In this document: positions 3,126 to 34,384 of the stretch, one piece after another
Layout: every line of letters starts with the position of its first letter
Position numbering within the stretch: position 1 is the stretch's first letter
Origin: a virus
IMG/VR virus record: IMGVR_UViG_3300043409_000843
Span: 1-34,401 of that record
Direction: 5' to 3' (one strand)
DNA length: 34,401 nucleotides
Position numbers and translations under genes: made by a program
The notes under the pieces: model-generated
The model's database searches: none
What the model was told of the DNA's origin: nothing
The model's input: only the letters and a program-made list of their open reading frames with translations

Positions 3126-3539
3126 ATGCGTAAATTACTTAAGGTATGTTTGTGTTTTATTTTATTAATGTTGTTGTGGGGTACTGCAACGTCGGCCAAA
3201 AAACCGACGTTATTGTGCCCTGAACGGCATAATTTGATTCGTTTTGTTTCTACTGGCCCCAAAATGGTGTACAAAGTAGATTATGTAATGCACCGTGAGT
3301 CACGCTGTAGACAATTGGCCTTTAATCCCGACGACCCAAATGGTGGTTCTTATGGTTTATTTCAAATCAATGGTTATTGGTGTAAACCATCACGTTGGTC
3401 AAAGTCTGGTTGGCTACAGGAACAAGGTATTCTTAAAACTTGTAACGATTTATATAATCCTTTGGTAAACGCCAAGGCGTTTATGTTGATGTTTGATTAT
3501 GCTGGTTGGGAACCTTGGGGTGGAGAGCCGTGGAACTAA
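3126..3539 (+). CDS. Secreted lysozyme-like (transglycosylase-fold) muralytic enzyme
   Basis: 137 aa. Residues 1-24 form a signal peptide or signal anchor (MRKLLK, then a Leu-rich core, then a TATSA-type cleavage region). The mature part shows the lysozyme-superfamily pattern: H-R-E-S-R-C with the likely catalytic Glu58, S-Y-G-L-F-Q-I-N at 75-82, and a late AGWEPWG segment. Four Cys (31, 61, 86, 106) could form disulfides. Predicted to cut peptidoglycan glycan strands after Sec export. It is the second wall hydrolase next to the M15 enzyme and overlaps the terL start by 10 nt. Confidence 0.75.
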   Translation: MRKLLKVCLCFILLMLLWGTATSAKKPTLLCPERHNLIRFVSTGPKMVYKVDYVMHRESRCRQLAFNPDDPNGGSYGLFQINGYWCKPSRWSKSGWLQEQGILKTCNDLYNPLVNAKAFMLMFDYAGWEPWGGEPWN

Positions 3540-5134
3540 ACGAACTACTACAAGAGGCCGAATGGCGTAAATGTCGTGGCGCAGACAACGCTACACCACA
3601 AGAACTAGTTGAAGCATTCAGTTATTTTTGTGCAAAATATTGGTATGTAAAACATCCAGAACGTGGGCGCATCAAGTTTGTTTTGCGACCAGCCCAAATA
3701 GGGACAATGGACGTTTGGATGACGGAACGTTACAGTATCGTTCTAAAGGCACGTCAGATTGGCTTTTCTACATTGGCTGCAGCATACAGTTTTTGGTTGG
3801 TGTTCTTTCGTCCAGACCGTTTGGTGGTTATGTTATCGAGAACCGAACGTGAGTCTGTTAAGTTGTTGGCTAAAGCCAAATACGGTTATAGATTCTTACC
3901 ACAATGGGTTAAACTACGTGGCCCACAACCAACAACTGACCACCAGTTAAAGATGGTGTTTGATAACGAGTCAACTATTGAGTCTTTGCCATCCAATAAC
4001 GACCCTGCGCGTGGTGAGTCTGTGTATTTAGTTATTGTCGACGAATGGGCGTTTCTTCCCAACGCTGAAGAAGCGTGGGCATCTATTGAGCCAGTATCGG
4101 ACGTTGGTGGACGTGTAATTGGCCTTAGCACGGCCAACGGTTCTGGAAACTTCTACCACCAATTATGGGTTGGTTCTCAAACAGGGTCAAATAAATTTAA
4201 GGGAATCTTTTATCCGTGGTCTGCGGACGGTGAACGTAATCAAGACTGGTATGATGCTAAAGCAGCCAACATGCACCCCTGGCAGTTACATCAAGAGTAC
4301 CCTTCATTCCCAGAAGAAGCGTTTATTAAGTCTGGTAACCCAGTGTTTGACATTCAAATGTTGGATGACATGGCTATTATTGCCCCAAGTATTGGGCATT
4401 ACCATTTGTATTCTGCGGGTAACTCTGAATTTCAGCCAGCAGAAGATGGTCCATTAGCAATATATGATATGCCACGAAAAGACAGCGTTTATGTTATTGG
4501 TGCTGACGTTTCCGAAGGTTTGTCGTATGGAGACTATAGTTCTGCCCATATTATTGATGCCAAGACAGGTATTGTCGTCGCGCATTGGCATGGTCGTATT
4601 GAACCAGACTTGTTTGGTGAACATTTGGCAGAGTTGGGTTGGTGGTACAACAATGCTTTGCTGGGTATCGAGAACAATAACCACGGGTTGACGACGCTAA
4701 AAGCGTCGCAACGCTATGGTTATAAGAATCTTTATAAACAGCGTAGAATGGCTAGTATACGACCAGAACAAACAGACATTTTGGGGTGGAGAACCACTGC
4801 TACGACAAAGCCGTTGATGATTGACGAGTTTGCAGCCGCCATGCGTACTGGCGCTATTGAAATATATGACCGTCAGACCATTGCGGAACTGCGCACATAT
4901 GTCCGTAAAGATAATGGTCGAACTTCGGGTAGCCCACATGACGACAGGGTTATTTCGTTGGCCATTGCAAACCAAATGTTAAAATATGTGTGGCTTCCAG
5001 AGTACATGGACACTAAAAAACCACCAGTCAATAGCCTTTTGTGGTGGGAACAACACATTTTTACCAATAATCGTACAGGAAAAACTAAAATGGGTGCCCA
5101 TAACGTCCGTGACGCTACACCGTTTCGTAGATAA
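3530..5134 (+). CDS. terL: Terminase large subunit (DNA packaging ATPase/nuclease)
   Basis: 534 aa from GTG 3530, preceded by GGGGTGGAGAG; an in-frame TTG at 3506 is less likely. The ATPase domain has an atypical Walker A, A-R-Q-I-G-F-S-T (74-81), Walker B with V-I-V-D-E (Asp171/Glu172) and the coupling motif S-T-A-N-G-S. The C-terminal nuclease domain has G-A-D-V-S-E (Asp326), I-E-N-N-N-H-G and D-D-R-V (471-474), as expected for an RNase H-fold terminase nuclease. It translocates and cuts DNA at the portal. No small terminase subunit could be recognised nearby. The stop is part of a recurrent TAAGGGAACG sequence. Confidence 0.95.
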   Translation: MELNELLQEAEWRKCRGADNATPQELVEAFSYFCAKYWYVKHPERGRIKFVLRPAQIGTMDVWMTERYSIVLKARQIGFSTLAAAYSFWLVFFRPDRLVVMLSRTERESVKLLAKAKYGYRFLPQWVKLRGPQPTTDHQLKMVFDNESTIESLPSNNDPARGESVYLVIVDEWAFLPNAEEAWASIEPVSDVGGRVIGLSTANGSGNFYHQLWVGSQTGSNKFKGIFYPWSADGERNQDWYDAKAANMHPWQLHQEYPSFPEEAFIKSGNPVFDIQMLDDMAIIAPSIGHYHLYSAGNSEFQPAEDGPLAIYDMPRKDSVYVIGADVSEGLSYGDYSSAHIIDAKTGIVVAHWHGRIEPDLFGEHLAELGWWYNNALLGIENNNHGLTTLKASQRYGYKNLYKQRRMASIRPEQTDILGWRTTATTKPLMIDEFAAAMRTGAIEIYDRQTIAELRTYVRKDNGRTSGSPHDDRVISLAIANQMLKYVWLPEYMDTKKPPVNSLLWWEQHIFTNNRTGKTKMGAHNVRDATPFRR

Positions 5135-5579: not shown

Positions 5580-7363
5580 TGGCTAAGAAATATTCGTCAG
5601 ACCATCTAGAAAAATGTCGCACCCGTTTAAGCAGTTCACGCAAATGGCGTAAATCTGAGGGTTACGACGCCACATGGCGTCGTTTGAACGACATGTATAT
5701 GGGTAAGCAATACGATTCCCATAAAGAAGAAGATAGAATGCTTGTTAATATTGCCTTCAGCACTATTAACGTTATTTCGCCATCAATTTCTGTTAACTAC
5801 CCAAAAATTACGGTTAATGCTGTTGATTCTTCTAATTCCGCTAATGCCGTTATTGCGGAAGCGGTAGTAAACTATTGGTGGAAACATCGTGACATTCGCA
5901 CCGAATTCCGTCGTAGCATTAAAGACATGCTAACCGTTGGTCATGGATGGATTAAAGTTGGCTACAGGTTTGTCGAGGAAGAGGCTATTGGAACTGGCGA
6001 CACAGAGGTTTCCGACCCAGTTGAGGGAGGCGATGGAACCCCAAACACTACGGTTCTTGAAGATAGTCCTTTTGCCGAACGTGTTTCCCCAGGTGACGTA
6101 TTTGTTGACCCAGATGCAACCAGCATGAGCGATGTTAAGTGGATTGCGCAACGTATCCGTCGGCCAATAGCCGACGTAAAAAACGATAAACGCTACAATA
6201 AAGCAGCACGCAATAAGGTCCAGGTTATGGCTGTTGCTAAATACTCTGATGACCCATCACGTCGAAAAGTTCAAGACCTTAGTATTGGTTATGCAGAACT
6301 ATGGGAATTCTATGACATTGCCGCTAATACTATGTGTATTTTTTGTGATTCTGGAGATTATTTCTTGGTAGAACCAATGAAAATGCCATACTCATTTGGC
6401 CAGCCGTTTGTTATGATTCGCAATTATGACGTTCCTGACCGTTTCTATCCAATTGGCGACTTGGAATCAATTGAACCGCTGCAACGAGAACTAAACGAAA
6501 CTCGTACCCAGATGATGAATCATCGCAAAAAGTTTAGTCGCAAGTATTTGTATAAGGAATCATCGTTCGACCAGCAGGGTCGAACGGCATTGGAGTCTGA
6601 CGACGACAACGTTATGGTTCCAGTTATGTCAGATGAACCACTAAGTGGTGTTGTGACCGCATTCCCTGCGGTAATCAACCCGCCAGAGTTTTATAATCAA
6701 ACAAGCATGATTATTACTGACATTGACCGTATTTCTGGTGTATCAGAGTTCCAACGTGGTGCCGTATCAGAAATTCGCCGTACGGCAACAGAGTCATCAT
6801 TGCTGCAAGATGCTGCAAACGCAAGAACATCTGATAAGTTGGCTATAGTTGAACAGGCTATTGCTGAAGTTGGTCGTCGCATGGTTGCTATGGCCCAACA
6901 ATACATGACTAGCGAACAGGTGGCGCGTGTTACTGGTAAAGACGGTGAACCAATTTGGATAACCTATGACCGAGATTACCTTGCTGGTAGTTTTGATTTT
7001 GAGGTTGCCGCTGGCTCAACACAACCACATAACGAATCATTTCAACGTCAAATGGCATTGCAACTGGTTGATGCTATGGCACCGTTTGCTGGTGCTGGTA
7101 TTGTTAATATGCAAAAACTGGCTGCACATGTATTGCAATTTGGTTTTGGTATTAAAAACCCAGACGAATTCATTCAGGCAGCCCCCCAGATGGGTCCAGA
7201 TGGTCAACCGATACCTGGCGCCCCTCCTGTCGACGCTGCTCAACCTGGAGGCCCAGAGGCACCGCAGGGACCAGAATCAACCTTGCCACCAGAGATTATT
7301 GCACAGTTGCAAGCCGCACAGGCGCAGCAACAACAGGGTATGCCACCTCCAGCACAATCTTAG
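5579..7363 (+). CDS. Portal protein
   Basis: 594 aa. It follows terL and precedes scaffold and capsid genes, the canonical portal position. The N-terminal half has the portal-like blocks LVNIAFSTINVISPSISV and NYWWKHRDIRTEFRRSIKDMLTVGHGWIKVG. The middle contains a long helix region, ELNETRTQMMNHRKKFSRKY, and a hinge with ISGVSEFQRGAVSEIRRTATESS. The C-terminus is Gln/Pro-rich and probably disordered. Portal dodecamers form the DNA entry channel and dock terminase and adaptor. The TAG stop is the first three bases of a TAGGGAACG sequence. Confidence 0.9.
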   Translation: MAKKYSSDHLEKCRTRLSSSRKWRKSEGYDATWRRLNDMYMGKQYDSHKEEDRMLVNIAFSTINVISPSISVNYPKITVNAVDSSNSANAVIAEAVVNYWWKHRDIRTEFRRSIKDMLTVGHGWIKVGYRFVEEEAIGTGDTEVSDPVEGGDGTPNTTVLEDSPFAERVSPGDVFVDPDATSMSDVKWIAQRIRRPIADVKNDKRYNKAARNKVQVMAVAKYSDDPSRRKVQDLSIGYAELWEFYDIAANTMCIFCDSGDYFLVEPMKMPYSFGQPFVMIRNYDVPDRFYPIGDLESIEPLQRELNETRTQMMNHRKKFSRKYLYKESSFDQQGRTALESDDDNVMVPVMSDEPLSGVVTAFPAVINPPEFYNQTSMIITDIDRISGVSEFQRGAVSEIRRTATESSLLQDAANARTSDKLAIVEQAIAEVGRRMVAMAQQYMTSEQVARVTGKDGEPIWITYDRDYLAGSFDFEVAAGSTQPHNESFQRQMALQLVDAMAPFAGAGIVNMQKLAAHVLQFGFGIKNPDEFIQAAPQMGPDGQPIPGAPPVDAAQPGGPEAPQGPESTLPPEIIAQLQAAQAQQQQGMPPPAQS

Positions 7364-9879: not shown

Positions 9880-11313
9880 ATGGCTCCACGTCCACAGGGT
9901 ATAGCCGATGATATTCTTAAGAAAATTATTTCAGAAGCAATTCAGGCAGCAAAGGGTGTAGTTCCCGATGTTGTAAAAGGTGCAACAAAGACTGTTGACG
10001 CAGCACCATCGGTTAGAACCGTTGCCGCTGCTGCCGTAGAATCAAGTAGTGTTGCCAAGAAACTTGCGGATTTGCGAGCAGCAAAAGCCGCAGGCAGCGT
10101 AGACGACGCGGCGTATTTGGATGGGTTGCTTGACATTCGCGCTGCAAAAGGTGCGCTGACAAAAGAAGAACGCAGAACAATTAACATTGCCCAAAACAAA
10201 GCACTCCAGGATTCAAAGAAAACTGGTGGTGCGATGGCTGACGAAAGAATGAAAGCAAACCTTGCTGATAAGAAAGCAAAGTCAGATAAATCTAAAAAGG
10301 AAATGAAGATATACGCTGACATTAAGTTTACTGGTAAAGAACGTTACGATATTGCTGCCGACGCATTGCGTAGCGAATTTGATTCAACAATGAATATTGT
10401 TGAAAGAAACACTAGATTGTCTGCTGGTTTTATTGAAGGTTATGAAAAAGAAGGTCAAAAGATTGTTAATGCTGGTATTACCGAACTTGGAAATGCACGT
10501 AAGGCTGGTATGAAAGTAACTAGCCCAGAGTACGGTGAACTTGTAAGACAGTATAAGCAAAAGTTGGCCAAATGGCAAGACCAGCAAACCGTGGCCGACA
10601 AAGTTGCTAGTTCGCGTAGTCAGGGTTTGGAAACACGTCTTGGAAATCTTAGCAAGATGACAGACCAAGAAGTTATTGATGCTGGTGTTCGTCAGTCTTT
10701 GTGGGACGACGATATTTCCATGGCGGAAATTCGTCGTGTTCGTCAAATGAATGAAAAACAATTTGCGGCATGGCGTGCAGAGAATTTGCGTGACCCCAAG
10801 AAGGTTAGCACAAATAAAGAGTTTAAGCCTGGTGCTGGCGGCGACAAACCTCTTCCTGTTTCTAAATCTGCGGCAGAATTACTGGATGCAAAATACGCAA
10901 AAATAGCCCGCAAGGCTGGTATGTCCCTAGAAGATTACAAGATGGTTCGTGCGGCACGCGAAAAAGCAGCACAGAAAGCAAAAGATAAAATGAATGTTCC
11001 AGATGTAGATTCACTAGATGTTTTAAAATCTGGTGAATCACCATATAAAATTGTTCAAAAAGACAAGGGTGGAAAAGTTGTTGTTGATGACAAGGGCAAG
11101 GAAGTATTTGTCGAAGCCACCGCAAAACAACGTGCTGCAGCAATCAAACGAACCGAAGCCCTTCGTCGTCGTGACGCTAAGGCTGCAAAACTGCGTTTGA
11201 AAGAAGATTCTAAGTACAATAAAATGGATAAAGAAATACGCGCAAAAAGAGAAAAACAGGATATAGCAAAAGCCAAACTTGAAGCATTGCGCATTAAAAA
11301 TTCAAAGAAGTAA
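9880..11313 (+). CDS. Large basic helical late protein with shared N-terminal motif
   Basis: 477 aa. It starts MAPRPQGIADDILKKIISEA, the same motif as the preceding gene product. Long Lys/Ala/Arg-rich helices make up most of the chain, with a final helix, KIRAKREKQDIAKAK-like, rich in charge. No transmembrane segment and no catalytic motif are seen. Its place between capsid and adaptor genes, together with the composition, suggests a virion-internal protein that may contact DNA. Adjacent paralogous N-termini suggest a common targeting or assembly signal rather than common function. Confidence 0.7.
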   Translation: MAPRPQGIADDILKKIISEAIQAAKGVVPDVVKGATKTVDAAPSVRTVAAAAVESSSVAKKLADLRAAKAAGSVDDAAYLDGLLDIRAAKGALTKEERRTINIAQNKALQDSKKTGGAMADERMKANLADKKAKSDKSKKEMKIYADIKFTGKERYDIAADALRSEFDSTMNIVERNTRLSAGFIEGYEKEGQKIVNAGITELGNARKAGMKVTSPEYGELVRQYKQKLAKWQDQQTVADKVASSRSQGLETRLGNLSKMTDQEVIDAGVRQSLWDDDISMAEIRRVRQMNEKQFAAWRAENLRDPKKVSTNKEFKPGAGGDKPLPVSKSAAELLDAKYAKIARKAGMSLEDYKMVRAAREKAAQKAKDKMNVPDVDSLDVLKSGESPYKIVQKDKGGKVVVDDKGKEVFVEATAKQRAAAIKRTEALRRRDAKAAKLRLKEDSKYNKMDKEIRAKREKQDIAKAKLEALRIKNSKK

Positions 11314-12965: not shown

Positions 12966-14581
12966 TGTCCAGGGTTTACGTTACCGAGCGGAAAGACTTT
13001 ACTGGCGGACTTAACTTTAGGTCGGACCAGTTTCAGTTGGCCGATAACGAATCACCATCTATGTTAAACGTTGAGATTGACCCACGTGGTGGAGTGTTTA
13101 GCCGTGGTGCCATGCGACGTCTAAACACATCTGCACCTGCTGGCGCGTGGGTACCAAAGACTTTGTTTCCTTTTACTGGAACTAGCCCACGACTCATGCT
13201 TAGTACGGCAGACAGAGTTTTGCATTCTACTGGTGGTAATTTTACCGAGGTTTCTTCCGCTTTGTCGACGCCACTAAATCCATCAAGTACCGATGGTGCA
13301 TCTTTTGTGCAGTGGGGCGACAATGTATATCTGGGCATGGGTGCCACCGCTGGTGGCGGTGGCTACAGATGGAAAGTTACAGATACATACGCTACAGCGT
13401 TAACAGAGTCTGGCACAGCACCAAACGCATGGCAGACAACATCAAACGACGCTATTCTTAAAATGCCATCTTGTGAACACATTATTGCACATGCTTCCAA
13501 GTTGTGGGCAGCAAACGTTGTTACTGGTGGAATTGCATACCCAAATAGAATTCACTGGTCTATGGAAAACTCTCCAACAAACTGGGAAGAACTGAATTAC
13601 ATTGACATTAACGGTGGTGGTGATGGCATAACTGGTGTAGCAATTGCTGCTGGACAATTGATTGTTTTCAAGCCACATGCTGTTTATGCTGTATATGGAT
13701 ACGACGAAACAAATTTCAACGTTGTTGAAATTTCACGTACTCTTGGTGCTGGAAATAGACACTCTATTGCGGCGACAGAAGGGGGCGTATATTTTGCGTC
13801 TTACCCAGAAGGATTGTTCTTTTATAACGGTTCTTCTGTAACGGATGTATTTGCTAACATACGACCAATTATCGAGTTGGGTTATGTAACCACTGGTGCC
13901 ACCAGCCCGTTACGTATAGCAATGATTGGGCGTAGAGTTTGGGTGTCCGCACCTTATTTGACCACTGGACCAGTTGCCTATCCAACAGTAAACTTTGTTT
14001 ACAACCCAGATTTGGGCACAAATGGCGCATACACCCAATTCTCCACTTATGATGGCAAGGGTCTGGTTACTGGATGTGACTGGAGAAACTCTGCTGGAGA
14101 AGAGTACCGTGTTGCCTGTCATCCAACTGAGCCGTATGTTATGCAGGTAGACATGTACGGTCAGGAAATGGACAACGTTACTGGTACGGATACTGGGTTC
14201 TCTAGTACCTATCGCACAAAGTGGTTTGATGCTAGTACGTATGCCCAAAAGAAGATGTTTCGACGTCCAGACTTTGTTGTAAAAGAAACAACCGTACCAC
14301 AAAACATTACTATTGGGGTATACCACGACTTCAATGAGGCCGTAGGGAACGAGGCGCGTATATTTGTACTGACACAAACACCACCTGCAACTGGACTCAT
14401 ATGGGGTTCTGGTTTGTGGGGGGAAAATTGGTCAAGTAGTGCCGTTAGTTCCACTATTTTGACTGGTTCAAACCTTGGTATGGCACGCACCGTACAGTTG
14501 GAATTTACTGGGCCAGTTGGTCAACAGTGGGGCCTAAACGGAATAGGTTACAAGTATCAGACTAGAAAGATTAAAGGATAA
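12965..14581 (+). CDS. P22 gp10-like DNA stabilisation/tail hub protein
   Basis: 538 aa, all-beta in appearance. It opens with D-F-T-G-G-L-N-F-R-S-D, continues with repeated short strands of beta-propeller type (F-K-P-H-A-V-Y-A-V-Y-G, E-G-G-V-Y-F-A-S, P-E-G-L-F-F-Y-N-G), and has a C-terminal beta domain. The combination matches packaged-DNA stabilisation proteins of P22-like short-tailed phages (gp10) and the propeller-type tail hub or nozzle proteins. These seal the portal after packaging and form the tail tip. The start overlaps the adaptor stop. Confidence 0.75.
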   Translation: MSRVYVTERKDFTGGLNFRSDQFQLADNESPSMLNVEIDPRGGVFSRGAMRRLNTSAPAGAWVPKTLFPFTGTSPRLMLSTADRVLHSTGGNFTEVSSALSTPLNPSSTDGASFVQWGDNVYLGMGATAGGGGYRWKVTDTYATALTESGTAPNAWQTTSNDAILKMPSCEHIIAHASKLWAANVVTGGIAYPNRIHWSMENSPTNWEELNYIDINGGGDGITGVAIAAGQLIVFKPHAVYAVYGYDETNFNVVEISRTLGAGNRHSIAATEGGVYFASYPEGLFFYNGSSVTDVFANIRPIIELGYVTTGATSPLRIAMIGRRVWVSAPYLTTGPVAYPTVNFVYNPDLGTNGAYTQFSTYDGKGLVTGCDWRNSAGEEYRVACHPTEPYVMQVDMYGQEMDNVTGTDTGFSSTYRTKWFDASTYAQKKMFRRPDFVVKETTVPQNITIGVYHDFNEAVGNEARIFVLTQTPPATGLIWGSGLWGENWSSSAVSSTILTGSNLGMARTVQLEFTGPVGQQWGLNGIGYKYQTRKIKG

Positions 14582-19600: not shown

Positions 19601-21911
19601 AAACGTTATGCGTAGTCTCGACCCAGAAGTAGATGACATAGCAATACAGGGAGTCTTTAATGATATTCTTGGCGAACTTGGAAGTGGCACAAAACTAGAT
19701 GGTTTGTTGATACCAATGGCGGCAACTTATCCTAATTTGCCAGCCAGCGTAACCGACAACCAATGGTCCGTTATTGATTCTAACAGATTATATAATTACG
19801 ATTTTGAACTTGGTCCAAATGGTGAACAAAAAGTTTTTGACGGTAGTGTGGCAAGCGAACGAGAACGTGCTTTGTATGGAAGGGGAACAAACGTTGTTAT
19901 GTCCGCCGACTCATCTCTTGGTAATCAAGTAATTAATGGTACTACAGAAATGTTTGAATTATCGTTAAGAGAATCTGTTGAACCAATTAACGCTACCACA
20001 AAATCGTTGGCACAAATTGATACAACTGAAATGACACTTGCGCGTGCGACAGATAAAACTGTAACTGTAGATGGCGTAAAAACCCCAGTTAGAGATGCGC
20101 TTAAGCGTTTAACTGGATTAGACAAAGACATAACTGTTGGTCTTAGTTCTGTCGACGCACAAATTGCTGAATCTGTTGAAGCAAAATTAGGTGTAGAAGG
20201 ATTACGCATGGGCATGATTGCCGCCGAGGCAAGAATGGCCATGTCATTTGACCAAGCAGCCGTCCTAAAGGGATGGGATGAAAGCGTTGGTGAAGCGTTA
20301 TCAAACGAACTTGGAAACATGATTTTGTTGTTGGAAAGCAAACCAGCAAAAGGTAGCACTGGTGCGTTGAACAGGAAGTGGGTTAAGGAAGTTACTAGTT
20401 CCCTTGAGGCTGTTGCCTCAATGGAAGATGGCCCAGCAAAAGAGGCTGCGGAAAAAGTTTTGTTGTTGGTGTATGCCGACGAAGCGAAACTTGCCGCAGC
20501 GACAGCGGAGTTGGATGCAAGCGAGTATCTTCTAGGCAGGGCGCTTACTGGCGAAGATGGCATAAGGATTGCCAAAAACCTTAAGGAAGGTTGGGCGGAA
20601 CTCAAAAATATGGGAGTTCAGGTTCCACGTGAGGTAACAGAAATTTGGATGCCTAGCATGGAACGTTTATTATCTGCTGGTCAGGCTGGATTGACAATGA
20701 GAACATTGAATACTATAACGGATTTGTGGAAACGTTATGTTACATCTACCGCTGGTTTCTTTGTTCGAAACGGAATGTCTGCTACGTTTATGAACATGGC
20801 TGACGCAATTCCAATGGCAGACATTGCTTTGGGTGCCAAATGGGCTGCTGCACAAGCAGACACAAAAGGCAGGACGCTTGCTGGTAATACATATAACAAC
20901 TGGGCGGAACGCGCTGGTGTAAAGGATATGGACTTGGCTGATTTTGTTCAAGCAAGTGTTGCCGCTGCGGGTCGTGGTGTTGCTGCGGATAACGGAATTC
21001 CTGGTGTTTCATCTGGCAGCCGCACGCGGTTGGCTGATAACGCTTATCTCCGATTCTTTTCCAGGAAGAACGACTTTGTTGAAAACATGGTTCGTATGCC
21101 AGTTGCAATCGATTCCTATAATCGTGGTTACACATTAGACCAATCAATTGCACGTATTGAACGTTTGCATTTGAACTATGGTGACCTAAGTGGCCTTGAT
21201 GCGCAGATGAAAAAAGTTGTTCCGTTTTGGATTTGGACTAGCAGAAACATACCGTTGCAGATTGCGCAAATGACAACACGGCCTAAAGCGTATTATGAGT
21301 ACCAACGTTTGCGTGAAGAATTCCCTAACGAAACAGAGTTTACCCCAGCATGGATTCAAGATAGAATGCCATTAGGTATTGGCACAAATTTGCTTACGCC
21401 AGATTTACCAATGGTACGATTGACACAAGTTGTGGATTCCCTAACAAGTCCTTATGGCATCGTGGGACAAGCAACACCTTGGTTGAAGTTGCCTATAGAA
21501 GTTATGTATGCAAAGAAACAACTTGGTATCGAAGTAGGGCCATTTAAGGACAAACAGAAGGCTACTGGATACCAAGAACCACTTGCTTGGATATTTGCAC
21601 AAGCCGAACAAACTGGTATGGCAACATATGACAAAGAAGGAAACCTTTTGATTGACCCTAGAGTGAATCATTTTGTAGAAACAGTGCTTCCACCGTTGGC
21701 GCAACTCAACCGACTAACTGGTGGATTGACTGGCGGCAAAGATACTTTGGAAGAACGTATTTTGTCGTCGTGGGCTAACTGGTTTGGTATCCCATTACGT
21801 CAAGTTAAAGAGGACCAACAGCGTAGTGAAGTTATGCGTCGCAAGTGGATGATGATTGACATGTCGGGACTAATTGAAGAAGTGTCTGAACTGAGAGAGA
21901 ACAAGCCGTAA
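16683..21911 (+). CDS. Giant (1742 aa) internal virion/DNA ejection-type protein
   Basis: 1742 aa, the largest gene in the window and the last late gene. The N-terminal third carries hydrophobic and Gly-rich segments with F-D-P-S-T-Y-L-T-L-G near residue 212. The middle is helical, with long charged stretches near 700-810. The C-terminal part contains TAGFFVRNGMSATFMNMAD (about 1357) and PFWIWTSRNIPLQIAQM (about 1516), a block I associate with very large phage internal proteins. I see no lysozyme or transglycosylase motif. In short-tailed phages such proteins are ejected to extend the tail across the envelope. Ejection protein is the best inference; a tape-measure-like role cannot be excluded. 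Confidence 0.65.
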   Translation: MAVNFSPYSKIPGKTPEPPWQIPEYFGPSASTKGTSSLADEVAALTKQFNKSKAAIMADPNLSPEERKKKIAILTAMRDTGNFKGSPYSSVGNFLGALGTTALGQAQKYVAEPLLQTSRALQVGATELILGAKSIPGEILRANNLSTDDMDARTNKQLVELDEFLAAKNYSNPEYNIFGSYSPFEITDTSLGGQGKWVGPVARFGADVAFDPSTYLTLGASTASRASRISLATRFGTTEMLEKYPMMADRLNLVARFGEAAIPENVRWAEGIESGTKFMGQRIQGTDAVASLWMKTGGAARAAVGDAIYATSPGKKLLAYTAPKSLRPLVVSGIGRSNAKGEFDDFIRGLAVFSSDKYRRATLITVNKQLQAEIGPAFAVAKEAGVDMNLVTQVMENPTLYGSVTDEPTKTLIDALTNWYAGVGDGYRQAQRLLGDDYDIAVSEMAFIDDYVFHTLSKEGKAYRFGTAGSEGGMFNKGDISARDLIEGDGTVLFRKYRAAKLDEFGKPIDPEMFFDQPVIKGTIEEMNGIFDRYMVSQGEKAGQKWFETGADVVAKGYATSIANAHGRVKFIRRMFDFGDYAIEPMLYDIIPDKALADKLSASTAVLKSIVGSLRRKASKSAGTAATKVVAGDGLEDVTNVAIAVLAGNRMASDAASAENLAAIAEVDKLMRLLEEARAAAVASTAVSRTEFEAVWINELAEARALREALVRGEGERFAALKILRTEYLTLHPTASVYEIDNASAEWLAESIVRRYSDGKSVSRIEKRLEKDIEKLEQKLINAGANDNLDEIDDALNEARTALGYAEDISNIKRKASYASDGVLYRTWGDSGHWSTKPPTENVSEWQKSGTGAMSIAVDEMDLVDTRLVSAMDNLLTGQNESGAHNFLVDAIATTFNRLPMPDTQFFEVAMNAIDNGTMVDELYKSVYPQHAELIDTILRATRFVREMADNGMEELPQQVITDLFVRLRSDIGNVMRSLDPEVDDIAIQGVFNDILGELGSGTKLDGLLIPMAATYPNLPASVTDNQWSVIDSNRLYNYDFELGPNGEQKVFDGSVASERERALYGRGTNVVMSADSSLGNQVINGTTEMFELSLRESVEPINATTKSLAQIDTTEMTLARATDKTVTVDGVKTPVRDALKRLTGLDKDITVGLSSVDAQIAESVEAKLGVEGLRMGMIAAEARMAMSFDQAAVLKGWDESVGEALSNELGNMILLLESKPAKGSTGALNRKWVKEVTSSLEAVASMEDGPAKEAAEKVLLLVYADEAKLAAATAELDASEYLLGRALTGEDGIRIAKNLKEGWAELKNMGVQVPREVTEIWMPSMERLLSAGQAGLTMRTLNTITDLWKRYVTSTAGFFVRNGMSATFMNMADAIPMADIALGAKWAAAQADTKGRTLAGNTYNNWAERAGVKDMDLADFVQASVAAAGRGVAADNGIPGVSSGSRTRLADNAYLRFFSRKNDFVENMVRMPVAIDSYNRGYTLDQSIARIERLHLNYGDLSGLDAQMKKVVPFWIWTSRNIPLQIAQMTTRPKAYYEYQRLREEFPNETEFTPAWIQDRMPLGIGTNLLTPDLPMVRLTQVVDSLTSPYGIVGQATPWLKLPIEVMYAKKQLGIEVGPFKDKQKATGYQEPLAWIFAQAEQTGMATYDKEGNLLIDPRVNHFVETVLPPLAQLNRLTGGLTGGKDTLEERILSSWANWFGIPLRQVKEDQQRSEVMRRKWMMIDMSGLIEEVSELRENKP

Positions 21912-22379: not shown

Positions 22380-22882
22380 TACTTGTCACCAGCCAAGGGC
22401 AACAAGAATGATTCCTCTTCCAACATTATTGCTATCATGGAGTAACCAACGATGTCGCTGTAAGAGTCTATAATGGATTCGTTGTTTGGGGTTTCTCGGC
22501 TTTCCAGATTCTGGATTCTAGCAATCTTGTCGCATATACGTATGGCCACCCCTATGATGCCAAAGTTGGAAATGTTTTTGTGGCCGTAATCATGTTGCTT
22601 GCTACATAAAATGCGCACCATCTCACCGTGTGAGTAGTTGCTTTCGGGGTTTTCTTTAAACCAATTTAATGCCTCGACACCTGCCCTACGCAACACCAGC
22701 ACTGCTAGTTCTTTGTCCATGTCGTCGTAGTCGCCATCAATAAGGCTGGCAACCCATTTGCTAATATAGGTTTCTATGGGCAGAAATTTCTTTTTGTCGG
22801 GCAAAGTTGATGTGCATTCTATTTGTAATTGATTTAACGCAGCGTCTGCTGCGGAATTGAATGTTTTGTGTGTATGTTTCAT
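22379..22882 (-). CDS. DUF1599 (nucleotide modification associated domain 1)-like protein
   Basis: 167 aa. The second half has the family pattern: K-Q-H-D-Y-G at 95-100, N-F-G-I-I-G-V-A-I-R-I, C-D-K-I-A-R-I at 117-123, N-N-E-S-I-I-D-S at 133-140 and D-I-V-G-Y. These spaced Asp/Glu/Lys residues recall all-alpha NTP pyrophosphatase-like domains. The family is found in phages and has been linked computationally to DNA base modification. No thymidylate synthase or hydroxymethylase is visible in this window, so the substrate is open. Overlaps both neighbours. Confidence 0.7.
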   Translation of the reverse strand: MKHTHKTFNSAADAALNQLQIECTSTLPDKKKFLPIETYISKWVASLIDGDYDDMDKELAVLVLRRAGVEALNWFKENPESNYSHGEMVRILCSKQHDYGHKNISNFGIIGVAIRICDKIARIQNLESRETPNNESIIDSYSDIVGYSMIAIMLEEESFLLPLAGDK

Positions 22883-23238
22883 GATTCGTTCTCCAGTAGG
22901 TATTTGTTGGTTATTGCTTCCATAAGTTTCGGGTTGCTTCTTAGAATTTCTTCTAGGTTATCTAGCGCTAATTTGGTTTTTCTCCAAGCATACGACTTGG
23001 CTTTTAGTCCTGTTGCCTTGGCTGCTTGTTGAAAAGATTTCCTTTCGTAGAACACTAAGTGTAGCATCTGTTGGTCAATGTCCCCTAAGATTGCTATAGC
23101 CTCAGAGACTGCATCTACTAGCGTCCAATCTGTTGGCGTATGTTCTGTTAGTGTTGCTTGCATCAACCATTCGGTTGTGTCGGAGTCCATTTCCTCGGCA
23201 TTAGCCTGGTCGGGTAAGTATCTAAATTCACTTGTCAT
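22879..23238 (-). CDS. Sigma-70 region 4-like helix-turn-helix protein
   Basis: 119 aa. After an acidic N-terminal 40 residues comes a sigma-region-4-like stretch: an initial helix (VDAVSEAIAILGDIDQQML), H-L-V-F-Y-E-R-K-S-F-Q-Q-A-A-K-A-T-G and a recognition helix (SYAWRKTKLALDNLEEIL). This is the L..ID...Q.V..L.Y.E.LS..EIA...G.s.....R pattern. No region 2 is present, so it is not a full sigma factor. It could be a transcription activator, an appropriator of host RNA polymerase, or a terminase-like HTH protein. ATGA overlap with the DUF1599-like gene. Confidence 0.6.
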   Translation of the reverse strand: MTSEFRYLPDQANAEEMDSDTTEWLMQATLTEHTPTDWTLVDAVSEAIAILGDIDQQMLHLVFYERKSFQQAAKATGLKAKSYAWRKTKLALDNLEEILRSNPKLMEAITNKYLLENES

Positions 23239-23692
23239 AATCGGTATTTATTAACATGTCCATAACATCTTCGGGTTCCAATAGATGACCAACGGTAGGG
23301 TTTGATGAACGTGCTGCAAACTTCTTATAGTTTTCCTTACAGAATCTGGCCTTATTGACTTTTAGATAACGCTTTACTCTGGCCACATCGAGTATAACGA
23401 ATGAACCATCGAGTGCATATACATATACCCACCAGGTTGCTTTGGTTACGGCTAGACCTGATGGTTTCCAATATGCTGTACCGTCCTCGTTCTTTGCCAG
23501 CCTAGGGTTCTGTTCCATTTCTAGCACCATACGTCCGTTACGATACCTGTCTGTTTTGACCTCAAACGAACCCGAAGTTATAGCGGTCAAGAATGATTCC
23601 ACTAAGGCTTCGCCTTTGTGGCCAAACTTCAGGTCATTAGCCCAATCATATTTAAGTGATGCTAAGTCGTAGTCGGAGTTTTTGTTTCCCAT
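23228..23692 (-). CDS. PD-(D/E)XK-like phage nuclease
   Basis: 154 aa. The pattern G-H-K-G-E-A-L-V-E-S-F-L, then F-E-V-K at 43-46, then L-E-M-E-Q and a P-S-G-L-A-V-T-K-A segment followed by W-W-V-Y-V fits the PD-(D/E)XK core (helix Glu, E-x-K, terminal strand). Small proteins of this kind in phages are thought to act on recombination or replication intermediates. It lies between RusA and the sigma-like gene in an overlapping operon. The nuclease call rests on motif recognition and has moderate certainty. Confidence 0.6.
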   Translation of the reverse strand: MGNKNSDYDLASLKYDWANDLKFGHKGEALVESFLTAITSGSFEVKTDRYRNGRMVLEMEQNPRLAKNEDGTAYWKPSGLAVTKATWWVYVYALDGSFVILDVARVKRYLKVNKARFCKENYKKFAARSSNPTVGHLLEPEDVMDMLINTDYDK

Positions 23693-30364: not shown

Positions 30365-31687
30365 CTAGTAGATGACATCTTGCATCATCTTGCTTGTGAT
30401 TTCGGGAGATGAACCCTTAGTGAGTCGCATCTCTACGGCATCCTTGAACGTGAAGCCAGCGTGCAACAACTTAGCACCGCTAATGGCAGCACGTGGACTA
30501 ACAGATACTTTCAGTCCATGTGATTCCGCATTGCGACGAACCTGTCTGACGATACGCAACCAACGGTCACACTCATCTTTCGGCAATCCAGTCATGTATG
30601 TGACATCTTGTTCCAACTGTTCGTCTAGTGGTACGTGAACCATCGAGAAACGGTCAAGTGTTGCTTCGTCAATCACCTGGCGACCCACATAAGTTGATGT
30701 TGCACCGTTACCCCATGTGTTCGCTGCCGCAATAGCATAGAAATCAGGGTGCTTCATAACACGCTTATCAGGGAAGCCAATGTAACCATTGGACAACGCG
30801 CTGTTAAGTACTAGTAGAATGTTCGGGTTAGCGCCGTCCACCTCATCCAACAAGTAAACGCCACCCTCTTCGTATTGCTTACGGAAAGCAACACTCTCGT
30901 AAACGCCAGTAGCGGTCTTGAAGCCTTTCATGTCGGACTTGGATGATTGACCACAGAACGACTCACCCTCAAACGATACGCCAAGTGCTTCTGCACATTG
31001 CATACCAATCGTTGTCTTGCCGACGCCTGCCATGCCAGTGAGCCACACATTCTCGCCAGCCTTGAGTGCCTGAAGAACTTTCGGAAACACTTTGTGGGTG
31101 GGTTTGGTAATGATAACGGTTGGCTTCTCGGGATGTGGCACAATGATGTGCTTGGGCTTGGAATCGTCAATCGCTGCCGTGAGTTGCTTCACAATCTCCT
31201 GAAGCAATAGGTCACGATTCTCGAATCGTGCGATGTAATCATCCCTAAGACCATCCACAAGTCCGTTCACACGATTCTGCAAATCTGTAACGGATTGCGT
31301 TGAGCCACCAGTTGAGCCACCAGCATTGCGAATCGCATCAGCGACGACAGAAGCAATAGCACCCTCAATCGTTGTGTTAGAACTTGCTGTCGTAGGTGTT
31401 GTCGTTGGCATGGGGATATTTGGTCTTGGTGTTGCTGCGTCAAACATGGTTTGATTCCCTTCGGGTATGGCTGCTGCGATGTCTCGGATAATTCGTACCA
31501 ATTCGTTGGTTGTGTACGACAACGGCGTCTTGCCGATGAAGCGATGCCCAACAATCTTTGCAATTCTGATAAGCGTGTTCCTATCTAAGTGAGGAATATG
31601 CCGTGAGTATTCCCCTGAAGGGAACTGAACCCAAGCGAGCATCTCCTTTAGGTCAACCCTATTGACCACTAGTGCCTTGTGTGCCAT
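30365..31687 (-). CDS. MoxR/CobS-like AAA+ ATPase
   Basis: 440 aa. A 200-residue N-terminal extension, partly low complexity (TTTPTTASSNTT), precedes an AAA_5-type ATPase core. Walker A is G-M-A-G-V-G-K-T-T at 218-226 and Walker B is V-Y-L-L-D-E-V-D at 277-284. Sensor 1 lies in A-N-T-W-G-N (Asn323) and the Arg finger in D-R-F (Arg346). This matches phage proteins usually annotated CobS. They are MoxR-like chaperone ATPases, and no cobalt-pathway gene is near. The gene is headed by a leader with the 21-bp repeat at 31757 and a hairpin 18 nt upstream of the ATG. Confidence 0.85.
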   Translation of the reverse strand: MAHKALVVNRVDLKEMLAWVQFPSGEYSRHIPHLDRNTLIRIAKIVGHRFIGKTPLSYTTNELVRIIRDIAAAIPEGNQTMFDAATPRPNIPMPTTTPTTASSNTTIEGAIASVVADAIRNAGGSTGGSTQSVTDLQNRVNGLVDGLRDDYIARFENRDLLLQEIVKQLTAAIDDSKPKHIIVPHPEKPTVIITKPTHKVFPKVLQALKAGENVWLTGMAGVGKTTIGMQCAEALGVSFEGESFCGQSSKSDMKGFKTATGVYESVAFRKQYEEGGVYLLDEVDGANPNILLVLNSALSNGYIGFPDKRVMKHPDFYAIAAANTWGNGATSTYVGRQVIDEATLDRFSMVHVPLDEQLEQDVTYMTGLPKDECDRWLRIVRQVRRNAESHGLKVSVSPRAAISGAKLLHAGFTFKDAVEMRLTKGSSPEITSKMMQDVIY

Positions 31688-31705: not shown

Positions 31706-31720
31706 TCCCCTAAGTGGGGG
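31706..31720 (-). promoter_or_regulatory. Start-associated hairpin before the AAA+ gene
   Basis: CCCC-TAAGT-GGGG (with a T-G wobble below) is 18 nt upstream of ATG 31687. It is followed on the - strand by AGAAATTAGGTTATAGGTT, a leader shared in outline with other genes in this region. Confidence 0.45.
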
Positions 31721-31756
31721 CTAATGACATCCTGAGAAGTCCTCAGAAATGGTGCT

Positions 31757-31777
31757 ATCTTTCTTGACATGTCCATC
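31757..31777 (-). repeat. 21-bp early-region repeat, copy A
   Basis: On the - strand it reads GATGGAC then ATGTCAAGAAAGAT; it is the only copy with A instead of G in the eighth base. Its left end is 70 nt upstream of the AAA+ start. A 12-bp hairpin lies 25 nt before it. Same orientation as the other three copies. Confidence 0.8.
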
Positions 31778-31801
31778 TGCAAACGCAGTAGACACAGCGT
31801 A

Positions 31802-31830
31802 CCAACACGGGGTAACGAACCCCGTGTTGG
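31802..31830 (-). terminator. Stable 12-bp hairpin downstream of the 31854-32288 gene
   Basis: CCAACACGGGGT / ACCCCGTGTTGG with a 5-nt loop AACGA. It is the most stable hairpin of the early block. No T tract follows on the - strand, so it could be a terminator lacking a U run, an mRNA stabiliser or a processing site. Confidence 0.5.
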
Positions 31831-31853
31831 CGACCAACCCACGTTGGCAATGG

Positions 31854-32288
31854 TTACAAGTATTCCACGACACCAGCATATGAGGTTGTGGAAACTTCCT
31901 CAACTTCGCTAATGCCCAACAGTTTGATTGCACTCTTGAGTGCTGCGATGCCACGATTTGCGTCGTATTGAGAGAAGTTCTCGTCTACGGTGATTGTTCG
32001 TGGGAATTTCTTGAGTGGCAACGCCATCCGCACAGACACGAAACGATTGCCGTTCTCATCCCACGCACTGCTTCGTGCGTCAAACTCGGTGATTGTTCCT
32101 GCGCCACTCTTGATGGCTTTCTGCATGATTGCGTGTTCACGCTTGGCTGTAGCAGAATTCTCATCCTGCATCGCTTTGTAATCAGCGAGTTGCTTCTCGA
32201 GGCGTGCCAATGCCTCAACCATCATGTCAAGCAACTTTGTGCGCTTGACCTTTACACTTATTCCCTTGCTTGCCATTGCATTACTCAT
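31854..32288 (-). CDS. Hypothetical early protein
   Basis: 144 aa from ATG 32288. GTG 32312 lies inside a hairpin, and ATG 32276 is possible; 32288 is chosen because it sits 18 nt from the hairpin, the spacing seen for other genes here. The N-terminus has a charged helix (LLDMMVEALARLEKQLADYK). The C-terminal part is beta/alpha (VSVRMALPLKKFPRTITVDENF and GIAALKSAIKLLGISEVEEV). No family recognised. It is upstream of the AAA+ gene, separated by a strong hairpin and repeat A. Confidence 0.6.
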   Translation of the reverse strand: MSNAMASKGISVKVKRTKLLDMMVEALARLEKQLADYKAMQDENSATAKREHAIMQKAIKSGAGTITEFDARSSAWDENGNRFVSVRMALPLKKFPRTITVDENFSQYDANRGIAALKSAIKLLGISEVEEVSTTSYAGVVEYL

Positions 32289-32306
32289 TTCTGGCTTGCG
32301 CCGTAA

Positions 32307-32328
32307 CCCCACCCCGATTGGGGTGGGG
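32307..32328 (-). promoter_or_regulatory. 9-bp start-associated hairpin
   Basis: CCCCACCCC / GGGGTGGGG with loop GATT, a perfect stem. It lies 18 nt upstream of ATG 32288 and 24 nt after the stop of the upstream gene. It may terminate, insulate or stabilise; no U run is present. Confidence 0.6.
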
Positions 32329-32352
32329 GCATTATCTTACAACTGGAAACGA

Positions 32353-32805
32353 TTACGAACGAGCGAACAGATTCTTTACAGCGTCTGCCAATGCGCCCTT
32401 CGCTTGACCGTCATCATAGATGAATTCCTCGTCGTCCGAGAAACGCAACAACGAACCGACATTGTATGGGTCTGCGACAATGCACAACTTCACACGACGC
32501 CTCTGTGGGTGTTCCGATGGCTTCAGTTCCTCGTCGGCGTGTTCGTCTTTGTCCCCCAATGGTGAAGCCCATCCACCCACAAGAACAGCGATGTACTTGT
32601 ACAAGGACACAATTTCTGCTGTCTCCGCACTCTCCAACAAGTCGTACACATCTTTCTCCTTGTGTACATCCGATGCTGGGAAGTCCAAGTCCCCATCCTC
32701 GTCAATGCTAGCGGAATCAAATCCGATAACCATTGCCTGCCCTTCGTTCATTGTCGCAGGGATTAGTTTCTCCCCAACGAGCCGCACTAACGCTTCGATT
32801 GACAT
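32353..32805 (-). CDS. Acidic hypothetical early protein
   Basis: 150 aa, strongly acidic (SIDEDGDLDFPASDVHKEKD; GDKDEHADEELKP; FSDDEEFIYDDG). The N-terminal helix is MSIEALVRLVGEKLIP. No catalytic motif or family seen. Acidic small phage early proteins sometimes mimic DNA or bind host enzymes, but nothing here proves that. The start follows AGAAAGTAAGGTAGGTT and a GCCC-TTAT-GGGC hairpin 17 nt upstream. Confidence 0.65.
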   Translation of the reverse strand: MSIEALVRLVGEKLIPATMNEGQAMVIGFDSASIDEDGDLDFPASDVHKEKDVYDLLESAETAEIVSLYKYIAVLVGGWASPLGDKDEHADEELKPSEHPQRRRVKLCIVADPYNVGSLLRFSDDEEFIYDDGQAKGALADAVKNLFARS

Positions 32806-32822
32806 AACCTACCTTACTTTCT

Positions 32823-32834
32823 GCCCTTATGGGC
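32823..32834 (-). promoter_or_regulatory. Start-associated hairpin
   Basis: GCCC-TTAT-GGGC, 17 nt upstream of ATG 32805 and nearly identical to the one at 33394-33405. It marks the 5' edge of an AGAAAGTAAGGTAGGTT leader. Confidence 0.55.
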
Positions 32835-32840
32835 GATAAA

Positions 32841-32858
32841 CCGCAACGGATGTTGCGG
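32841..32858 (-). terminator. 7-bp hairpin between small early genes
   Basis: CCGCAAC / GTTGCGG with loop GGAT, 7 nt after the stop of the 41-aa gene. It could terminate or process the upstream transcript; no T run follows on the - strand. Confidence 0.4.
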
Positions 32859-32865
32859 GTATTAC

Positions 32866-32991
32866 TTACTCTGTTCCATGTGAGGGATGCGAATTACGGC
32901 AACTCTCACGCTTACGAACATCCTCGTTTGATGGATACTTCACGAACACCCATAATGTGAGCGCCGCCATAATGGTTGCAAACACCATCAT
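32866..32991 (-). CDS. Very small membrane protein (41 aa)
   Basis: 41 aa. It starts MMVFATIMAALTLWVFV, a single membrane segment, followed by a polar tail (KYPSNEDVRKRESCRNS). The ATG overlaps the preceding stop as ATGA, the coupling arrangement used throughout this phage, which supports that it is real. Possibly a small early inner-membrane protein; function unknown. Confidence 0.6.
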   Translation of the reverse strand: MMVFATIMAALTLWVFVKYPSNEDVRKRESCRNSHPSHGTE

Positions 32992-33218
32992 AGGGTGACC
33001 CCACAAGCCTGAAGGAAATCCATGTGAGTGCCTTCTGCGAGGAAATCCTCGTCATCTGTTGCAAACATTTGCACAAGCGCAACGACAACTTCGTCAAGCA
33101 CTTCGCCCTCATTGGGCAACGGCTCTCCTGTGTTGTATGCGTGTTGCAAACTTGACACAACCGAGTTTATCGCTGCTGCGATAACCGCGTAATCTTTCTT
33201 GTCAAACTGGCGCACCAT
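32988..33218 (-). CDS. Small acidic hypothetical protein
   Basis: 76 aa, starting MVRQFDKKDYAVIAAAINSVV, helical and acidic (GEVLDEVVVALVQMFATDDEDF). No family recognised. It is coupled by ATGA to the membrane protein downstream and lies 2 nt after the stop of the 51-aa gene. Confidence 0.6.
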   Translation of the reverse strand: MVRQFDKKDYAVIAAAINSVVSSLQHAYNTGEPLPNEGEVLDEVVVALVQMFATDDEDFLAEGTHMDFLQACGVTL

Positions 33219-33220
33219 GA

Positions 33221-33376
33221 TTAGATACCTGCCTTGTCGTGTTGCTTGAGGAACGAATCGATTTGCGAACGAGTTTCACGCAACTGGTCAAACAATTCCG
33301 CCATCTTCATCTTGTTCCTGTCCGTGTGTCCCATCAAATCCTCAATGAGTTTCATGAGCCTATCTGCATCCAACAT
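33221..33376 (-). CDS. Small coiled-coil protein (51 aa)
   Basis: 51 aa, MLDADRLMKLIEDLMGHTD, then RNKMKMAELFDQLRETRSQ, essentially one helix. The ATG at 33376 follows a leader GGAAAGCAAGGTATGTA, with hairpin 33394-33405 17 nt upstream and repeat copy B 61 nt upstream. This regulated position makes a real gene likely. Function unknown. Confidence 0.6.
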   Translation of the reverse strand: MLDADRLMKLIEDLMGHTDRNKMKMAELFDQLRETRSQIDSFLKQHDKAGI

Positions 33377-33450
33377 TACATACCTTGCTTTCCGCCCTTG
33401 TGGGCATAACGATTTGGGTTATTCCAAATCGGCACTATCTTTCTTGACAC
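33376..33450 (-). CDS. Possible 24-aa leader peptide starting in repeat copy B
   Basis: The GTG inside the repeat opens a 25-codon frame beginning MSRKIVPIW. Its TAA overlaps ATG 33376 as TAATG, the coupling style of this phage. The same (A/G)TG-TCA-AGA-AAG opening occurs in the other three copies. It has not been seen as a protein family; the frame may be fortuitous. Confidence 0.3.
   Translation of the reverse strand: MSRKIVPIWNNPNRYAHKGGKQGM
33394..33405 (-). promoter_or_regulatory. Start-associated hairpin
   Basis: GCCC-TTGT-GGGC, 17 nt upstream of ATG 33376. Near-copy of the hairpin at 32823-32834, with the loop differing by one base. Confidence 0.55.
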
Positions 33451-33457
33451 GTCCATC
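33437..33457 (-). repeat. 21-bp early-region repeat, copy B
   Basis: GATGGAC then GTGTCAAGAAAGAT on the - strand, followed by AGTGCCGATTTGG. Its left end is 61 nt upstream of ATG 33376. It is partly folded into the hairpin at 33453-33479. Confidence 0.8.
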
Positions 33458-33479
33458 CGCTGCCACAGGCAACGGATGG
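33453..33479 (-). terminator. Imperfect 11-bp hairpin abutting repeat B
   Basis: CCATCCG(c)TGCC - ACA - GGCA(a)CGGATGG, one mismatch. It starts 5 nt after the stop of the 50-aa gene and shares its GGATGG arm with the repeat. It might end the upstream transcript or control the repeat element. Confidence 0.45.
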
Positions 33480-33484
33480 GGATA

Positions 33485-33637
33485 TTACTTGTTAGCATCT
33501 TTCGCACGCCTGGGCTTGACATGAGTCATTTCTCCGTGCAAATTGCAAGCAACGCTTGCAGAACGCAGAAACACCTCAATCTCACGCCCACACTTGCAAG
33601 TGTAAACGCCCTTCGGATTGACCACGCGCTTACGCAT
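33485..33637 (-). CDS. Small Cys-rich protein (50 aa)
   Basis: 50 aa, basic ends (MRKRVVNPKG ... KPRRAKDANK) around T-C-K-C-G-R-E-I-E and A-C-N-L-H-G. These three Cys plus His could bind zinc as a small ribbon. The leader AGAAAGAGGTTAGGTT precedes ATG 33637, and hairpin GTCGG/CCGAC is 16 nt upstream, which supports the start. Function unknown. Confidence 0.6.
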   Translation of the reverse strand: MRKRVVNPKGVYTCKCGREIEVFLRSASVACNLHGEMTHVKPRRAKDANK

Positions 33638-33653
33638 AACCTAACCTCTTTCT

Positions 33654-33667
33654 GTCGGCGCACCGAC
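33654..33667 (-). promoter_or_regulatory. Start-associated hairpin
   Basis: GTCGG-CGCA-CCGAC, 16 nt upstream of ATG 33637, followed on the - strand by AGAAAGAGGTTAGGTT. Confidence 0.55.
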
Positions 33668-33756
33668 CTGACCTATGTGCGGGATTGCACATAAGAAATA
33701 ACTCCCTGCGAGCATGGTTTCGTCGATTATCGCGTCCCACACCCGCAGAGAATAGT

Positions 33757-33792
33757 GTGCATAGCGTGCAGGGGGAACAACACGCTACGCAC
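33757..33792 (-). ncRNA. Long stem-loop within the hairpin-rich region
   Basis: GTGCaTAGCGTG / CACGCTAcGCAC, 11 pairs with one A-C mismatch and a 12-nt loop CAGGGGGAACAA (+ strand). The large C-rich loop of the - strand version could pair with a G-rich ribosome binding site. A functional RNA is inferred from structure only. Confidence 0.35.
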
Positions 33793-33895
33793 TAGTGTGT
33801 GTTACGGGAGTTGCACCCATACGCTAGATTGCCACAATCTCGTGGACACACGACTTCCCGCAGGTATAAGCCCGCTGGTAACTCGGGAAGGGAAC

Positions 33896-34210
33896 TTAGG
33901 CGACGACAACCGCAGGCTTCGGCGTACGCATGTACGCGAAGATTGCTTTGTTCGCCATTGACTTCGCATCCGCAGGTGAGAAACCGCCCGCGATGAACCC
34001 AGCCAGCATGGTTGCGAACTCGGTCTCGTAACCCGCACGCCACTCGGGCGTTGGCTTGACGGCTTTGACCTTCGCAGGCTTGTTGGCTTTCTCTGCCGCT
34101 TTCGCAGCCGCGAGGGCTGCCCGAGCCTCAGCCACTAGGGCTTTGGCGGTTTCCACTTCCGACACCACGGGCGCTGAGACCACGGGTGTAACTTCCTTGC
34201 GCTTTGCCAC
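33896..34210 (-). CDS. Ala/Lys/Pro-rich early protein
   Basis: 104 aa from GTG 34210, chosen because GGAG is 8 nt upstream, a weak hairpin (34228-34239) lies 17 nt upstream and repeat C lies 63 nt upstream, as for the other genes; TTG 34273 would be inside the repeat. The chain has a low-complexity helix (EARAALAAAKAAEKANKPAKVK) and a compact C-terminal domain (WRAGYETEFATMLAGFIAGG; DAKSMANKAIFAYM). Base composition here is richer in G+C than in the rest. No family recognised. Confidence 0.55.
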   Translation of the reverse strand: MAKRKEVTPVVSAPVVSEVETAKALVAEARAALAAAKAAEKANKPAKVKAVKPTPEWRAGYETEFATMLAGFIAGGFSPADAKSMANKAIFAYMRTPKPAVVVA

Positions 34211-34272
34211 TTGCTTCTCCGTTCCGCGCCCCGCAGGACGCTGTAGCCGTTGGCGGTTGCCAAATCGGCGCA

Positions 34273-34293
34273 ATCTTTCTTGACACGTCCATC
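34273..34293 (-). repeat. 21-bp early-region repeat, copy C
   Basis: GATGGAC then GTGTCAAGAAAGAT on the - strand, followed by TGCGCCGATTTGG, very like the flank of copy B. Its left end is 63 nt upstream of GTG 34210. Confidence 0.8.
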
Positions 34294-34363
34294 CACACTC
34301 ACACGCTGCGAGATGAACAACACTCGCCGCGAGTGGCAGGATGAACTAGCCAATCGGACTGCA

Positions 34364-34384
34364 ATCTTTCTTGACACGTCCATC
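34364..34384 (-). repeat. 21-bp early-region repeat, copy D
   Basis: Identical core to B and C; the following bases TGCAGTCCGATTGG are shifted by one. It lies 91 nt from copy C with no clear gene between; a small inverted repeat ACTCG-CCG-CGAGT is at 34320-34332. It may drive a short RNA or a gene located at 34210. Confidence 0.75.

Follow-up and report, generated by a model that had tools for sequence, protein, structure and literature searches.

What role does a short sequence play that recurs, always in one orientation, ahead of the early genes of an uncultured tailed phage? The 21-bp sequence GATGGACRTGTCAAGAAAGAT occurs exactly four times without mismatch in the single virus record of 34,401 bases analysed here (the window). 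All four copies lie on the - strand and read in the same direction as the early genes. None occurred in 100 dinucleotide shuffles, and a search of the window with up to three mismatches found no fifth copy. A preliminary description had reported these copies, and we confirm their positions and shared orientation as well as the distances of 70, 61 and 63 nt to the start codons ATG 31687, ATG 33376 and GTG 34210, respectively. The repeat had been taken for a promoter, an operator or a processing signal. Of these, we favour a structured RNA signal, while no sigma-70 promoter was found; the hairpin in which the repeat takes part had been missed. Our best reading of the sequences is that the repeat would form the 3' arm and the single-stranded linker of a larger intercistronic RNA element in the early operon.

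The Repeat and Its Genomic Setting

The + strand of the window encodes terminase, portal, scaffold, capsid and internal virion proteins, and the - strand encodes primase, helicase, exonuclease and other early genes. The capsid protein has homologs with 83-88% identity in many IMG/VR contigs, mostly syntenic; the same protein, used to search genome contigs for a host, gave no match. The exact 21-mer is absent from all other IMG/VR contigs, and a loose pattern scan with a 16-nt part of it returned scattered single matches in contigs without relatives of the window genes. Copy A (Table 1) lies 17 bp from the end of the contig, and the arrangement in related phages suggests that one more tandem copy beyond it may be missing from the contig.

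Table 1. Coordinates of the repeat copies, hairpins, hammerheads and tRNA-like folds
Feature	Record	Position	Strand	Remark
Copy A core	window	34364..34384	-	conserved 3' arm and linker; 5' arm truncated by contig end
Copy B core	window	34273..34293	-	last tandem copy ahead of first early gene, GTG start 34210
P1 of copy B	window	34287..34318	-	GUUCAUC...GAUGGAC; shuffle p 0.066
Copy C core	window	33437..33457	-	upstream of 51-aa ORF 33221-33376
P1 of copy C	window	33453..33479	-	CCAUCCGUUGCC UGU GGCAGCGGAUGG; shuffle p 0.003
P2 of copy C	window	33410..33431	-	CGAUUUGG AAUAAC CCAAAUCG
P3 of copy C	window	33394..33405	-	GCCC ACAA GGGC; adjoins Shine-Dalgarno
Copy D core	window	31757..31777	-	upstream of MoxR/CbbQ-like ATPase gene 30365-31687
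P1 of copy D	window	31769..31795	-	GUGUCUA CUGC GUUU GCAG A UGGACAU; shuffle p 0.03
P2 of copy D	window	31728..31751	-	CAU..CUGAG GACUU CUCAG..AUG
P3 of copy D	window	31707..31720	-	CCCC..GGGG; adjoins Shine-Dalgarno
MoxR/CbbQ-like AAA ATPase gene	window	30365..31687	-	leader bears the element in all syntenic relatives of the clade
Type II hammerheads	L109	6676-6742, 7442-7508, 7721-7784, 10067-10126		before early genes
Type II hammerheads	L111	8495-8560, 9055-9120		before early genes
Type II hammerheads	G013	19741-19801, 22919-22979, 23302-23369		before early genes
Type II hammerheads	G015	13248-13312, 14215-14281		before early genes
tRNA-like fold	L131	4515-4582		early leader
tRNA-like fold	L133	~2955-3045		early leader
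tRNA-like fold	L139	~3495-3585		early leader
tRNA-like fold	L099	~10830-10920		early leader
tRNA-like fold	L111	~6100-6195		early leader

Anatomy of the Element

The element contains a hairpin (P1) formed between a variable 5' arm and the repeated 3' arm and, directly after it, a conserved, purine-rich linker starting with GU(C/U). Two further hairpins (P2 and P3), a Shine-Dalgarno sequence and a start codon usually come next, and copies C and D of the window have this full arrangement. The agreement of the downstream flanks noted earlier (CCGATTT/CCATTT) is present, but it is merely the beginning of P2. The window alone offers only three complete P1 hairpins for testing (p-values in Table 1).

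The Element in Syntenic Relatives

The ATPase gene leads to the counterparts of the element in other genomes. Its homologs are 42-44% identical in G002, G006, G007 and G018, whose ATPase leaders have the anatomy of the window's leader in a different spelling; a repeat particular to each genome recurs at several of its early intergenic places. The homologs in G012, G013, G015, G019 and G022 are 35-37% identical. Further genomes were recruited by an ATPase profile search. The linker reads TGTCAAGAAAGAT(A/T)G in the window, GCGTCAAAGATAGG in G018, L127, L128, L170, L174 and L175, GCGTCATAGATAAGG in L140, and GTGTTGAAGTAATAG in G002, G006, G007, L130, L133 and L139. It had been proposed that related genomes be searched for copies at equivalent places, and position and architecture do recur there, but the letters differ.

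Across 13 records, 53 copies run in the sense of the early genes and none antisense. Two or three tandem copies, approximately 66-91 nt apart, stand at the head of the early operon; of the others, a single copy precedes the ATPase gene, and some genomes have a further one before a DUF7192 gene or a different small gene. In L140 the array follows a strong intrinsic terminator at a distance of approximately 320 nt and thus opens a transcription unit. In four genomes the pattern GAC-N16/17-(C/T)ATAT lies directly ahead of the first copy, which we offer only as a suggestion of a possible start site.

Is the Pairing Maintained?

When only the 5' stretch was shuffled, the real P1 was more stable (mean z -1.5; combined p-value approximately 4e-12 for 36 sites, which overstates the evidence because the sites are partly related). 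Relatedness inflates the p-values generally. For a covariance model, MAFFT left the variable loops unaligned, and we therefore exchanged the arms between copies. The 3' arm's own partner fits better than those of other copies, both when all copies are used (z -5.7, p-value < 5e-5) and when the exchange is restricted to the same genome (z -3.4, p-value 0.0008). Several pair types occur per position of P1, and equivalent leaders have changed on both sides of the stem, as in GCACACAC/GUGUGUGC of L128 versus GCACGCCCC/GGGGCGUGC of L140. The DUF7192 leaders of G018 and L175 likewise differ on both sides of P1, and P2 and P3 are also retained despite altered letters. Pairing kept through sequence change is the mark of a structured RNA, and on these comparisons the RNA-level reading of the element is well supported.

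P1 can be folded just upstream of the GUC/GUU core in the non-first copies, more weakly in a few (for example L140 3479 and L133 2684). In the copies that open the arrays (L125 3973, L128 4152, L140 3397, L131 4049, L133 2605) P1 is not beyond chance. These copies are likely near the transcription start, and their lack of P1 is expected if P1 matters only within a longer RNA. Within any one genome the 3' arm is nearly constant and might therefore serve as a DNA-binding site. The minimal copies, found before the DUF7192 gene, consist of one hairpin and approximately 12 nt, which is little for a specific processing site.

Other RNA Structures at Equivalent Sites

Early genes of G019 are preceded by four canonical type II hammerhead ribozymes, one of which stands ahead of the ATPase gene. 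G013, G015 and G022 also bear type II hammerheads, and in G013 one lies before the ATPase gene. In these four genomes the core is intact and the stems are paired, and the predicted cleavage sites are 52-61 nt before the start codon. After cleavage, a hammerhead mRNA starts with a hairpin and a short single strand; P1 with its linker has the same shape. Hammerheads upstream of phage early genes are already known, as at the HF1/HF2 helicase (PMC3088659). Table 1 lists eleven type II hammerheads before early genes of related environmental phages (L109, L111, G013, G015). Two of these eleven received an Rfam score; at 24-27 bits, they fall short of the gathering score of 37.

A third kind of structure is tRNA-like. 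The ATPase leaders of G015 and G022 contain a tRNA-like fold with a T-arm, and the G002 group has one with D-arm and T-arm, without an anticodon arm, directly before one copy of the element. The folds of early leaders listed in Table 1 have an acceptor-like stem, one arm, and a T-arm with a UUCAAUU or UGCGAUU loop, without a full cloverleaf; ARAGORN called none of the tRNA-like folds of early leaders.

Within the window, type II hammerheads (CUGANGA, GAAA(C) and NUH, with stems I and III closed and stem II open) were sought by regular expression and by Rfam at E-value up to 10, and there are none. Nor did any RNA family match the element when Rfam covariance models were run, at E-values up to 10, over the window and its relatives in the clade. 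The element and the type II hammerhead (RF02276; PMC3088659) share equivalent intergenic places, the sense strand and a similar distance to the start codon. Unlike the hammerhead, the window element has no CUGANGA or GAAAC; a hairpin followed by GUC is all they have in common. CUGAUGA is found near two array copies and is absent in other lineages, and we rejected a hammerhead remnant.

Proposed Function

The repeat probably marks where long early messages are cut or protected. We regard it as about an even chance that the element acts as RNA between cistrons to define or protect the 5' ends of early mRNAs, in place of hammerheads. Transcripts of the early operon would begin at the tandem array or upstream of it, with further copies sitting between genes, and each copy would set the 5' end of a messenger. 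A nuclease, either a host RNase or a phage factor, would cut the polycistronic early RNA at P1 or just ahead of it, and the product mRNA would begin with a protective hairpin some tens of nucleotides before the start codon. The type II hammerheads of the more distant relatives would do the same job by another route. We infer the cutting, the nuclease and any effect on stability or translation; self-cleavage of the element is unsupported. Of the three kinds of element at these sites, two are, or resemble, modules that cut or process RNA, and it is most economical to read the third likewise, as a maker or guard of mRNA 5' ends. The replacement of one element by another at the same site hints at equal function without proving it.

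More tentatively, and with rather less confidence, we consider that this lineage swapped hammerheads for an undescribed RNA element, whether a self-cleaving motif or a nuclease-processed hairpin, at the same intergenic sites; ribozyme, tRNA-like fold and P1 hairpin would then be three interchangeable makers of 5' ends. Phage genomes contain many small ribozymes whose role is still debated. Syntenic phages with hammerheads, tRNA-like folds and an unrelated hairpin at equivalent positions amount to a natural swap experiment. Should all three yield mRNA ends of one kind, phage hammerheads would be shown to serve the maturation of early mRNA. The element itself, which the comparisons indicate to be real, structured and kept across several lineages, with a predicted function, supplies a new RNA motif. 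As far as compared, the motif is new relative to Rfam and to the phage elements taken from the literature, while its kind is already known, namely structured RNAs that stand between phage genes at hammerhead-type sites.

Alternative Explanations

The main rival is a role of the conserved arm at the DNA level: a phage-specific promoter or operator, read for example by an early transcription factor, with the hairpin secondary. It would suit the near-identity over 21 bp among copies of one genome, their tandem arrangement where the operon begins and the single orientation before genes. By placement, the known repeats nearest to ours are the extended start-associated sequences (ESAS) of cluster K mycobacteriophages, which recur upstream of starts and contain inverted repeats and putative promoters (PMC3203893, PMC11373665). 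The SAS/ESAS and our element share multiple copies, one orientation, a position upstream of the starts of non-structural genes, an inverted repeat and a lineage-specific spelling. They part in the arms. Both ESAS arms are conserved, without covariation, and departures from them do not support pairing (PMC3203893), and SigA-like (putative) promoters lie inside (PMC11373665); here the 5' arm has no conserved letters yet keeps its pairing, and no promoter is seen. The window lacks the 17-bp conserved inverted repeats with the SAS GGGATAGGAGCCC that define ESAS, its 5' arm being unconserved, and no SAS occurs at its start codons. Sigma-70 -35/-10 hexamers 16-18 nt apart number two in the region versus 2.5 expected, none of them at a copy. 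The spacing between conserved blocks also varies among lineages, and hammerheads, which act only as RNA, hold the equivalent sites in relatives. We therefore consider the DNA site unlikely, though worth keeping in view. Two specific promoters were rejected: a FliA-like one, with GCCGAT downstream of the core in only two of the four copies and absent in relatives, and hairpin promoters of N4 type, used by a virion RNA polymerase, since the 1742-aa virion protein of the window has no polymerase match. N4-type hairpin promoters have both arms conserved.

The repeat had also been likened to L5-type stoperators, the sites of a cluster A repressor. Both contain TGTCAAG, and stoperators are likewise asymmetric, intergenic and in one orientation (PMC3029335). 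The likeness does not extend further: no copy is within three mismatches of the L5 consensus 13-mer GGTGGMTGTCAAG, whose matches in the window at that tolerance (18 seen versus 15.2 expected) are at chance level; the elements of relatives (GCGTCAAAGATAGG, GCGTCATAGATAAGG, GTGTTGAAGTAATAG) lack TGTCAAG at the same position; the window element has a hairpin; and no repressor or integrase was found among the genes scanned, in a contig that may be incomplete. The element is not an L5-type stoperator, and we hold a repressor-bound repeat of this type to be extremely improbable. The sigma-region-4-like protein at 22879-23238, which had been named as a possible reader, is equally present in relatives that bear hammerheads instead, so nothing ties it to the element. 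It has a weak FliA match (E-value 0.026) and is perhaps a late transcription factor.

Two further explanations stay at the RNA level. The element could be bound by a protein or the ribosome and control translation, termination or antitermination, like boxB, put or the R17 operator, with no cutting. A hairpin and a conserved single strand right ahead of the Shine-Dalgarno sequence would fit, and the tandem leader copies resemble antitermination sites, but such sites are not usually repeated ahead of single genes, the early genes tested included no candidate RNA-binding protein, and the hammerheads at equivalent sites point to cutting; we find this improbable. A new class of small self-cleaving ribozyme that replaced the hammerhead is very unlikely. 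It would explain the sites equivalent to hammerheads in relatives and the purine-rich linker with its conserved GUC that two hairpins flank, and searches in the neighbourhood of hammerhead-associated phage genes have uncovered new ribozyme classes (PMC4604425). Against it, the minimal copies have a single hairpin and a short linker, the letters of the linker vary by lineage, and no Rfam ribozyme matches. The pistol ribozyme (PMC4604425) shares the 5' hairpin followed by a linker and the phage setting, but the window element lacks an Rfam match to it; by eye, the P1 loop has no partner for a pistol-like pseudoknot. A CRISPR-repeat mimic (Racr; PMC10651486) is unlikely given the variable 5' arm.

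Minor Features of the Early Region

In front of several early genes, some with the 21-bp element and some without it, lie small GC hairpins followed by an A-rich stretch and a Shine-Dalgarno sequence (33394-33405, 32817-32829, 33647-33665 and 31707-31720 of the window). The window also encodes, at 33485-33637, a 50-aa protein with three cysteines (CKC...C) that is common to L127, L128 and L170. Ahead of the ATPase-leader P1, both the window (31803-31829) and G018 (L125, upstream of 5928) have a hairpin of 9-10 bp with a 7-nt UUCGU(U/A)(A/G) loop.
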